A stretch of DNA of 64,000 nt from Chromobacterium violaceum ATCC 12472 (GTDB lineage Bacteria; Pseudomonadota; Gammaproteobacteria; Burkholderiales; Chromobacteriaceae), in NCBI RefSeq assembly GCF_000007705.1, contig NC_005085.1, forward strand, positions 930,001 to 994,000, read 5' to 3'. The translations under genes were made by a program, and so were the position numbers. Each line of letters begins with the position of its first letter. The stretch's first letter is position 1. The notes under the pieces are model-generated. The model ran no database searches and was not told the DNA's origin. It saw nothing but the letters and a program-made list of their open reading frames with translations. Shown piece by piece: positions 60,678-63,640 of this stretch.

Positions 60678-61424
60678 ATGGTCGACATCATGCGAAAACT
60701 ACTGTCCCTCTCCCTGTTCGCGCTGCTGGCGGGTTTAGCCCAGGCCGACGAGCTCAAGCCGGCCCGCAACGGCGACTTCGCCCACTACACCTTCGCGCTG
60801 GCCTGGCAACCGGGCTTTTGCACCGCCGGCGGCGAAGGCTGCCTGCCCAGCCAGCCCAAGGAGGAACTGATCGGCCTGCACGGCTTGTGGCCTTCGGAAC
60901 CGAAAAGCCTGGAAGACAAGGGCGTGAAGGTTCAGCAATGGTGGGCGTCGGGCTGTTCGATGCTGCCGCATGTGACGGCGGTTCCGCTGCTGTCCGAGGA
61001 GCTCCGGCAGCGCTTGAAGGAAACCATGCCGCAGCTGGCCAGCGATCTGCAGACCCATGAATACGTGAAGCATGTGCAGTGCTTCGGTTACGACGCCAAC
61101 GAATTCTTCTCCACCGCGCTGCAGATGCGCGAGGCTGTGGTGGACAGCGATTTCGGCCGCTACCTGCTGGCGCAGGCGGGCCAGACCCGCAGCGACGCGG
61201 AGGTGAAGGATGCCTTCGCCAAGGGCTACGCCACGGGAGAACGCGGCGCGCTGCAGCTGCGCTGCGCCAAGGACGGCAAGGGCCGTAACGTGCTGACCGA
61301 GCTGTGGTTCACGCTGAAGAAGGACAAGCTGGACAGCTTCCCCGAGGCGGACAGCTTCCTGGACACGCCGGTTGCCGAGCGCGAGGATACCTGCTCCCAG
61401 CCATTTGTCTTGCCAGGCTGGTAG
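60678..61424 (+). CDS. RNase T2 family ribonuclease (catalytically complete)
   Basis: 248 residues from ATG 60678 (ATG 60690 immediately before the hydrophobic signal core is nearly as good). A signal peptide ends after AQA, so the enzyme is periplasmic or secreted. Catalytic block 1 is LHGLWPS (His 68) and block 2 HEYVKHVQC (His 127, Glu 128, Lys 131, His 132). Cysteines in GFCTAGGEGC and SGCSM fit disulfides of the family. It cleaves RNA without base specificity through a 2',3'-cyclic intermediate. A second gene of the same family lies 1.5 kb downstream. Confidence 0.9.
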   Translation: MVDIMRKLLSLSLFALLAGLAQADELKPARNGDFAHYTFALAWQPGFCTAGGEGCLPSQPKEELIGLHGLWPSEPKSLEDKGVKVQQWWASGCSMLPHVTAVPLLSEELRQRLKETMPQLASDLQTHEYVKHVQCFGYDANEFFSTALQMREAVVDSDFGRYLLAQAGQTRSDAEVKDAFAKGYATGERGALQLRCAKDGKGRNVLTELWFTLKKDKLDSFPEADSFLDTPVAEREDTCSQPFVLPGW

Positions 61425-61759
61425 GCTGGGTGGATAAAACGGCTAAGTGGGCTTTATTGCATAACTTCAATGCAGGTTTGGCTCATTTTTTTACATAAAA
61501 TCAATAAATGGCTGCTGTTGGGCGACACGGAACATGGGGCGACTCAAGCCGGTGATGATGAGACGCCACTCCGCCGAAGCGTCAGGTGGTAAGTCTATCG
61601 CCTTGTGGTCCGCAGTCCTCCAGCTTGGTTTCAAGTGCGTTGGAGTGGTAGTGGCCGCTCCGCTGTTGCCATATTGTCCTGCCTGGTTGTTTGGGGAGCG
61701 GGGAATCTGGTTTCGAAGTCGCGTGCCCAGTGTGCTCTAGCATACTGGTGGGTCTGAAT
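61425..61759. other. Gene-free stretch with a possible IS end
   Basis: About 335 bases between the first RNase T2 gene and the IS remnant. GGCTTTATTGCATAA at 61450-61464 resembles terminal repeats of IS903-like elements (GGCTTTGTTGAATAA). No transposase remnant of that type follows. A 68-codon open frame at 61534-61740 shows no recognisable features. Confidence 0.4.
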
Positions 61760-62543
61760 GAGGCTATTTAGACTCGCTAACAAAACCTGTCGATAAATCG
61801 AAGACATATTAATGAGAAAGCGAGTTTGAGCAAGGCGTAATGCATATCCAGCCGCCGCTCGAAGCGGATGCGCAACTTGCCGAAGCCCGCTAGCCAAGAA
61901 TAGGTACGTTCTACCACCCAACGGTGGCGACCTAGTTTCTCGCTGCTTTCCACCCCGCGACGAGCAATTCGCACCAAGACTCCGCGCCGGCTCAGGTGTT
62001 CACGGCAACGGCGGTAGTCGTAACCTTTGTCGACATGCAGCTTGTAAGGCTTTTGTTTGGGCCTCCCTGGCAAACCAGGAATGGCAGGAATCGCATCGAC
62101 CAAAGTTTCGAAGGCCATGGAGTCGTGTCGGTTGTCGCCGGTCATGCTCAGCGCCAGTGGCAAACCTCGGCGATCCACGATGATGTGCCGTTTACTGCCG
62201 CATTTGCCTCGATCGGTGGGTTTGGGGCCGGTCTTTTGGCCCCCCCCCGGGGCTGGCAACACTCGCCCCGTCGACGCTGCGTGAGCAATGTCAGATGACG
62301 CTGATCCCAGAGACCTTTGAGCTGCCAATCTCGTAGCCGTCACCAGCAGGTCATGCCGCTGCCGAAGCCCAGTTCCTGGGGCAGATCTTCCCATGGGATA
62401 CCCGTGGTGAGGACAAATAGAATGCCGTTCAGAGCGGCCCGATCATCCAAGCGGGGGCGACCCCTGCCACGGCGACGAGGTGGCAGGGCAAGCAGCTGCT
62501 GTAAGGATTTCCACAGCTTCTGGGTGACAAGTTGATGTCTCAT
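61760..62543 (-). mobile_element. Decayed IS5-family insertion sequence
   Basis: A transposase remnant bounded on the left by GAGGCTATTTAGACTCGC (61760-61777), which resembles IS5/IS427-type terminal repeats. The expected inverse copy (ending AAATAGCCTC) is not found upstream of the transposase start, so the right end is lost or diverged and the outer limit given is that of the coding remnant. No clear target duplication is seen. Confidence 0.65.
61777..62543 (-). pseudogene. IS5-family transposase, multiply broken
   Basis: The N-terminal part reads LVTQKLWKSLQQLLALPPRR to GIPWEDLPQELGFGSGMTCW and then meets an in-frame TGA (62340). Downstream, matching sequence (RLRDWQLKGLWDQ) continues in that frame. 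About 15 codons before the first catalytic Asp (VDGASV in another frame) appear deleted. A run of nine C (62240-62248, G on the coding strand) shifts the frame again before GGGQKTGPKPTDRGKCGSKR. The C-terminal half is intact, with KLHVDKGYD (second Asp) and RRGVESSEKLGRHRWVVERT (catalytic Glu). Three lesions make activity impossible. Confidence 0.85.
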
Positions 62544-62905
62544 GCCCGTCTGACAAGGCTCGGCATCATAAGGCAGGAATGCCTACAGGAGCCGGGTCAG
62601 TCCATTCAATGATCAGTCGCGTCTGTGAAGTTGATGTTCAAGCGCTACAGTTCTTTCTACCGGTTAGCGTTAGCGCATGGCGGAGACGATATGGCTAAGC
62701 TCGAGGGACATGGCTATATATTTCAATTTCTTAAAAATTATCGTACGTGTGTGAAATGTTCTATATCTTTTTAAAGATTGATTAAATTTAGATGGATGGC
62801 ATGCCTGCCAATTTGGCTTTTCAAGTAGATTGCAGGTGACTGGATACAAAAATTCCGGCATCAGCTTACGAAGCAGTTTGGGAGCTTAATCCAAAGGGAG
62901 CGGGA
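62544..62905. other. Low-GC stretch upstream of the second RNase T2 gene
   Basis: About 360 bases with no convincing gene; a 63-codon minus-strand frame at 62670-62861 lacks family features. GC content falls sharply from about 62700 onward and the composition continues into the following gene. The promoter of that gene should lie here. Confidence 0.45.
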
Positions 62906-63640
62906 ATGTACGCGCGGATCCGTTTAGTACTCGTGGTCTTGATCACTGCATTGCCTGCAATGGCGGGGAATTTGAAAGCGGTTAGAAATGGGGATTTTTC
63001 CTATTACACACTGACACTGGCTTGGCAGCCGGGTTTTTGCAAATTGAGCCAAGCTTGTCAGGCGCCGCAGAACCCGGCCGCGGCAATCGCTCTGCTTGGG
63101 CTATGGCCTTCCTTGCCCGTCAGTCTGCAAGAGCAAGGCGTTAAGGACCAGGATTGGCGGAGCAAGGGTTGCCTATACTTCAGCCATAGCGTTGACGATC
63201 CGCAGCTGTCGGATGAGGTGCGGGTCAATTTGCTCAAGGTGATGCCCAGATTGATTGATGACGATCTGATCAGCAGCGAGTTCATAAAGCATGCGCAATG
63301 CTTTGGTTTTCAAGGTGATGAATATTTCTCTAAGGCATTGAAATTAAGACATTTTGTTGTGAGTAGCCCGTTTGGTGCCTATCTGGAAGGCAAGAAGGGA
63401 CAAGTCGTGGATCAAGAGGCAGTCCGCCAGGCTTTCATTCATGCTTTTGGCGCTGCCAGCAGCTCGGCATTAAGCTTGCGTTGCCAGCGTGATGCTCAGC
63501 AACACAGCTTATTGACTAGCTTGGAAATAAGGATATCCGCGCAAAAGATAAGTGCCTTTCCGGCTGAAGCGTCATTATGGGGGGCGGTTAAAATCGATGT
63601 CGCCGACAGCTGCGATGGGCAGATATGGATCCCGAGTTGA
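62906..63640 (+). CDS. RNase T2-family paralog lacking catalytic His (putative pseudoenzyme)
   Basis: 244 residues, clearly homologous to the RNase at 60678 over the whole length (KAVRNGDFSYYTLTLAWQPG, EFIKHAQCFGFQGDEYFSKA). A signal peptide ends after AMA (about residue 20). In block 1 the histidine is replaced by Leu 64 (LLGLWPS; codon CTT at 63095). In block 2 the first His is Ser 124 (SEFIKH), while Glu 125, Lys 128 and His 129 remain. Cysteines are mostly kept, so the fold is probably maintained. GC content is lower than in the active copy and neighbours. AAGGGAG precedes ATG. It may bind RNA, act as inhibitor or be decaying; catalysis by the standard mechanism is not expected. Confidence 0.85.
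   Translation: MYARIRLVLVVLITALPAMAGNLKAVRNGDFSYYTLTLAWQPGFCKLSQACQAPQNPAAAIALLGLWPSLPVSLQEQGVKDQDWRSKGCLYFSHSVDDPQLSDEVRVNLLKVMPRLIDDDLISSEFIKHAQCFGFQGDEYFSKALKLRHFVVSSPFGAYLEGKKGQVVDQEAVRQAFIHAFGAASSSALSLRCQRDAQQHSLLTSLEIRISAQKISAFPAEASLWGAVKIDVADSCDGQIWIPS

Follow-up and report, generated by a model that had tools for sequence, protein, structure and literature searches.

What would keep an intact gene of the ribonuclease (RNase) T2 family, deprived of its catalytic histidine, next to a copy which still has it? The question is raised by two genes, here designated a and b, of Chromobacterium violaceum ATCC 12472 (genome of 4,751,080 bases, single contig). They lie on the same strand of the analysed window, a stretch of 64,000 nucleotides, with nuoN and a small conserved gene upstream of them. 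The main finding was that the active-site loss in b is common to its orthologues and goes together with purifying selection; by this measure b is a pseudoenzyme under selection. For its role, binding of a partner in the cell envelope is tentatively proposed.

The gene pair

Gene a (60690..61424, plus strand) and gene b (62906..63640, plus strand) encode proteins of 244 aa each and are separated by 1481 bp, in agreement with the preliminary description of this DNA, which had reported two RNase T2 genes about 1.5 kb apart on one strand. The start of a had been placed at 60678; length and alignment with relatives make 60690 the likelier start. Both proteins matched PF00445 (E 3.6e-14 for a, 1.3e-11 for b) and scored above its curated cut-off of 26 bits, b with 45.4 bits and its orthologues with 40.6 and 47.5 bits. 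In NCBIfam the ribonuclease I model was the sole match for both, below the cut-off of that model. The closest solved structure for both proteins was Escherichia coli RNase I (E 3.2e-27 for a, 2.4e-20 to 1e-20 for b). It was also the best structural match of the predicted model of b, which overlays it and points to an RNase T2 fold. A signal-like hydrophobic segment was recognized by eye at the start of both proteins.

Gene a encodes an RNase T2 of the RNase I type in which both active-site blocks, HGLW and HEYVKHVQC, are present, as had been claimed; the alignment places its block-1 (CAS I) His at codon CAC, 60879..60881, and its first block-2 (CAS II) His at codon CAT, 61056..61058, both on the plus strand. 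In b the corresponding motifs read LGLW and SEFIKHAQC. Leu64 (CTT, 63095..63097, plus strand) stands for the block-1 His and Ser124 (AGC, 63275..63277, plus strand) for the first block-2 His, the same two replacements that the preliminary description had named. Trp67, Glu125, Lys128, His129 and all six cysteines of the subfamily are kept. The earlier statement that b retains the fold is borne out by PF00445 and the predicted model, while "most cysteines" has to be corrected to all six.

Catalytic positions across relatives

The alignment combined 80 loci from a genome scan (the best 80 of 118) with database proteins, giving 111 rows and 108 distinct sequences. At the block-1 position, one mark of a catalytically competent RNase T2, Leu was found in five of the distinct sequences, all of them b, and His in the other 103. 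Orthologues of b with an intact His were looked for and none was found; the five distinct b sequences all had Leu and Ser. The first block-2 position was His in 102 sequences, Ser in the five b rows and Tyr in one. Trp67, Lys128 and His129 were invariant in all 111 rows, b included. Within the block-2 Glu-x-x-Lys-His of b, the Lys128-His129 pair (63287..63292, plus strand) was present in every aligned b sequence, and Glu125 was replaced by Val in two C. amazonense-type rows and was Glu in the remainder. Leu64 is encoded by CTT in C. violaceum and by CTG in C. amazonense and C. sinusclupearum, hence the residue has outlived synonymous change between species. In total, eight positions conserved to at least 96% in 104 relatives had another residue in b, the same one in all four b rows that were compared: His64 Leu, Trp85 Arg, His124 Ser, Phe140 Tyr, Gln190 Ser, Gln205 Ser, Trp207 Glu and Phe240 Ile.

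The two histidine losses were not given the same weight. According to a statement on the RNase T2 family in PMC4136927, activity should be abolished when the block-1 His is lost and reduced when the additional block-2 His is lost, and on this ground an inactive b is predicted. Less can be learned from the first block-2 His, because E. coli RNase I has Tyr at this position. Its loss as a strong sign of inactivity was weakened also by the RNase T2 loci from the wider class, where 7 of 29 loci, counted by eye, had Y, G, K or S there with the block-1 His kept. These 29 loci were what remained of 33 PF00445 matches (32 of 369 genomes had a match) after exclusion of the match from the own genome and of three without a locus. 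The block-1 His was intact in 29/29, which should not be taken as a fair rate, since the search may miss pseudoenzymes: the same profile search of the own genome returned only a, though the b protein scores above the cut-off. Two of the class loci, L068 and L073, kept the block-1 His and had Gln for the block-2 Glu (RYQW and SQW, respectively).

A further difference was observed in a itself. The motif was extended to HGLWP in the three genomes bearing b and to HGLWA in their nearest relatives without b; HGLWP was also present in three further a genes, out of nine without b.

Selection on gene b

Near-neutral evolution of b, which the preliminary description had set as a test of its proposal, was not seen with any of the methods: the ratio of nonsynonymous to synonymous substitution rates (dN/dS, omega) was 0.10-0.22 by NG86, 0.18-0.24 by YN00 and 0.18 by maximum likelihood. 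The individual NG86 values for b were 0.224 (bootstrap 0.134-0.329) for C. amazonense and C. sinusclupearum, 0.137 (0.076-0.227) for C. violaceum ATCC 12472 and C. sinusclupearum, and 0.099 (0.059-0.175) for C. violaceum ATCC 12472 and C. amazonense; the corresponding pairs of a gave 0.133, 0.192 and 0.217. The long pairs in this comparison were near synonymous saturation and some bootstrap replicates were lost (worst case for b, 90/400). A maximum likelihood codon model, written for the purpose and applied to 12 a and three b genes, gave an omega of 0.107 for a and 0.183 for b, with the stem branch between a and b saturated and uninformative. Fixing b to omega 1 was rejected (likelihood-ratio statistic 130.9), and setting b equal to a was worse as well (8.4, p 0.004). 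As both were rejected, b is constrained, somewhat less than a.

Decay and sequencing error were ruled out as explanations, since separate genomes have Leu and Ser at these positions alike and the codon model rejects neutrality. The idea that b has been selected for a non-catalytic role, rather than being in simple decay, is supported by these common residues together with the low dN/dS.

Distribution and origin

Nineteen Chromobacterium genomes were compared. Gene a was found in 12 of them and b in three, C. violaceum ATCC 12472, C. amazonense and C. sinusclupearum; b occurred only where a was present and adjoined it in 3/3 cases. Searches of protein databases added two b clusters, P0002 and P0003, the latter nearly identical to b of C. 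amazonense. No full match to b was obtained in 42 further genomes of the family, six of which had weak short matches to the b profile (E 8e-8 to 1e-3). A first contig scan with b alone as query returned 27 stretches fitting a pattern, none of them a relative.

The source of b was approached by phylogeny and by synonymous divergence. In the midpoint-rooted LG tree b branched outside a and the other relatives used, P0028 excepted. The site-mixture tree placed it as sister to Chromobacterium a with weak support (33/67), its stem measuring 1.5 changes per site. Neither tree established a recent tandem duplication. In a species tree built from nuoN and metK, C. violaceum ATCC 12472 grouped with C. 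vaccinii, C. piscinae and the genome G008, all without b. Between C. violaceum and C. sinusclupearum, synonymous divergence (dS) was 1.49 for a and 1.56 for b, compared with 0.28 for nuoN, 0.28 for metK and 0.39 for a nearby acyltransferase gene; the values of a and b are thus approximately 4 to 6 times those of the three reference genes but near saturation, and fall short of establishing an import. Between C. amazonense and C. sinusclupearum, a had 0.18 and b 0.28, against 0.09, 0.12 and 0.16, respectively. In all three genomes b had a lower GC content at third codon positions (GC3) than a. A scan with 15-codon windows gave no signal of gene conversion between the two genes. Going by these sequence comparisons, an old duplication with losses and an import would both fit as the source of b.

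The intergenic region

The 1.5 kb gap between a and b consists mostly of an insertion-sequence remnant with a DDE transposase frame containing in-frame stops (61777..62574, minus strand; PF01609 E 8.5e-18 over 61777-62394). It is not present in C. amazonense and C. sinusclupearum, where the gap is 347 bp. The final 187 bases of the gap (62719..62905, plus strand) are common to the three species with 67-70% identity by BLASTN and alignment. At their end are 13 bases, AAAGGGAGCGGGA (62893..62905, plus strand), which are identical in the three species, adjoin the ATG of b and likely include the ribosome site. Because these 187 bases and the 13 bases at their end are common to the three species, b seems to have retained its own start region. 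A sigma-70 scan upstream of b returned no promoter-like site. Kin of the insertion-sequence remnant elsewhere in the genome were all partial (92% over 275 bases, 72% over approximately 500 and 98% over 44).

Proposed role and alternatives

The closest published case is RnaA (A1S_3026 / ACX60_RS02390) of Acinetobacter baumannii, an RNase T2 protein without the two histidines, with effects on surface colonisation and motility (PMC3904860). In that report of 2014 RNase activity was undetected, given as data not shown with limits admitted, and no obvious secretory motif was noted. A later report describes a signal peptide and eight cysteines in RnaA, terms it a possible pseudoenzyme, and mentions the same histidine loss in close orthologues (PMC10249906, 2023). 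There, the BfmRS system is shown to become active when rnaA is lost, and a role in sensing disulfide defects or oxidative damage is proposed (PMC10249906). As described there, RnaA and b are alike in being bacterial RNase T2 family proteins which bear cysteines and lack catalytic His, in b that of block 1, the signal peptide of RnaA being that of PMC10249906. Compared with the RnaA type, b shows loss of the block-1 His, retention of the second block-2 His, six cysteines and, as judged by eye only, putative export.

We consider it possible, at somewhat less than an even chance, that b is a selected, exported, RNase I-like pseudoenzyme, predicted not to cut RNA, which likely acts as a binding partner in the cell envelope by an RnaA-type mechanism. 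Binding of a partner instead of cutting of RNA is likely because the key His is missing, the loss is common to close relatives of b, and the gene is under selection. In such a mechanism the protein would be exported by means of the signal-like segment, would form three disulfides and, following the predicted model, would fold like RNase I. RNA cleavage would be lost, given the known need for the block-1 His. By analogy with what is proposed for RnaA, a periplasmic protein in that scheme, b would then work by binding its partner in the envelope, where a regulatory system may sense its level or folding. RNase function would stay with the active copy a, leaving b free for the new role. Envelope signalling was not among the roles proposed in the preliminary description (RNA binding, inhibition of an enzyme, or a decoy) and is suggested here by the RnaA case.

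Several points weigh against this proposal. The analogy leans on a case which is itself unsettled, as the missing secretory motif and the data-not-shown inactivity of PMC3904860 stand against the signal peptide of PMC10249906. RnaA, compared here by its published description, has eight cysteines and a complete loss of the catalytic histidines, whereas b has six cysteines and keeps the block-2 Lys128 and His129; for these reasons b is probably not an orthologue of RnaA, and its role may be a different one. The invariance of Lys128-His129 is a hint that contact with phosphate or RNA could still be of importance. In addition, the occurrence of b is patchy in the genus, and the higher omega of b compared with a indicates some relaxation.

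The main rival, which we regard as unlikely, is that b is a non-cutting binder of RNA or nucleotides outside the cytoplasm, whose old cleft with Trp67, Lys128 and His129 likely holds RNA as a carrier, decoy or protector. The invariance of these three residues over the whole alignment fits such a role, as does the fold predicted by the model, and mature b has a less negative net charge than a of the same genome (-1.8/-7.7, -3.3/-8.6 and -3.2/-9.6). However, b is still acidic, other near-invariant positions including two Trp (85 and 207) are replaced, and the block-2 Glu has become Val in b of C. amazonense. Control of a comes next: b could regulate or antagonize the active enzyme beside it, through a complex or through competition for substrate, which we find improbable. 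Dead copies regulating active ones are known from other enzyme families according to PMC5201418, and b is always in the company of a (3/3); yet adjacency would also result from duplication or a common insertion slot, the conserved region upstream of b is its own, and a evidently does not need b, since nine of the 12 genomes with a are without it. Just as doubtful is the wider notion of a dedicated pair of enzyme and dead twin, in which b would bind and control a or the substrates of a outside the cytoplasm, having arisen separately from RnaA of Acinetobacter.

The remaining two explanations are less probable still. Cleavage of RNA or a related substrate by an altered active site, with His129 and further groups taking part, would agree with the retention of Lys128 and His129 and with the modelled fold. 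It is hard to reconcile with a block-1 His stated to be essential in the family (PMC4136927), with an alignment where no substitute histidine was visible by eye in b, and with the additional loss of Glu125 in C. amazonense, and we hold little expectation of it. We have least of all for b being a weakly constrained relic in the course of being lost. The presence in 3/19 genomes, an omega above that of a, the lower GC3 and the insertion-sequence remnant upstream of b in C. violaceum ATCC 12472 could be read in this way, but omega is 0.18 with neutrality rejected, and the frames are intact, with the 13 bases before the ATG identical in three species. The envelope-binding pseudoenzyme is the reading we prefer.

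Relation to known RNase T2 proteins

The idea of RNase T2 pseudoenzymes is not new, as inactive members have been reported in plants, flatworms and Acinetobacter (PMC3904860, PMC10249906, PMC4136927, PMC5598434). Those of flatworms and grasses are described as lineage-specific copies which have lost essential histidines (PMC4136927, PMC5598434); unlike b they are eukaryotic, and the losses are presumably separate. CalsepRRP, the RNase-related protein of Calystegia sepium (1jy5), belongs to plant class II and apparently serves protein storage (PMC5598434). E. coli RNase I (rna), the best structural match of the b model and with its Tyr at the first block-2 His position, differs in having the block-1 His and in having eight cysteines (PMC10249906) against six in b.

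A Chromobacterium RNase T2 with only one of the two histidines is mentioned in a single sentence of the Discussion of PMC3904860, citing the C. violaceum genome paper, and this is most likely gene b. That passage names no gene and mentions neither a neighbour nor orthologues nor a test of selection. Among the matches listed from the open-licence literature, no paper was found that deals with the a-b pair, with its orthologues or with selection on it. Gene b appears to be a second case, probably separate, of a bacterial RNase T2 that has become a pseudoenzyme. It adjoins an active copy, and no such neighbour is mentioned for RnaA in the passages on it in PMC3904860 and PMC10249906. Because the active copy lies beside it in the same genome, deleting a or b singly in one strain can separate what this fold does with cleavage from what it does without. 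Should b also feed envelope signalling, the RNase I fold would have been recruited for that purpose twice, and a general use of the fold without catalysis in Gram-negative envelopes would be indicated.

A CsgG-family gene near gene a

In eight of the nine Chromobacterium genomes with a and without b, a gene for a CsgG-family lipoprotein was found within approximately 2 kb of a. Gene b (3/19) and the CsgG gene (11/19) occurred together in none of the 19 genomes. Mutual exclusion of the two from one slot is only suggestive, with p 0.018 for the 12 genomes having a and 0.058 for all 19, uncorrected for relatedness. The slot of the CsgG-like gene lies between a and a lipid A acyltransferase-like gene. 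In G008 it corresponds to L026:7120-8851, where the CsgG-family gene is followed by DUF4810 and GNA1162-like genes, as identified with Pfam in this genome alone.
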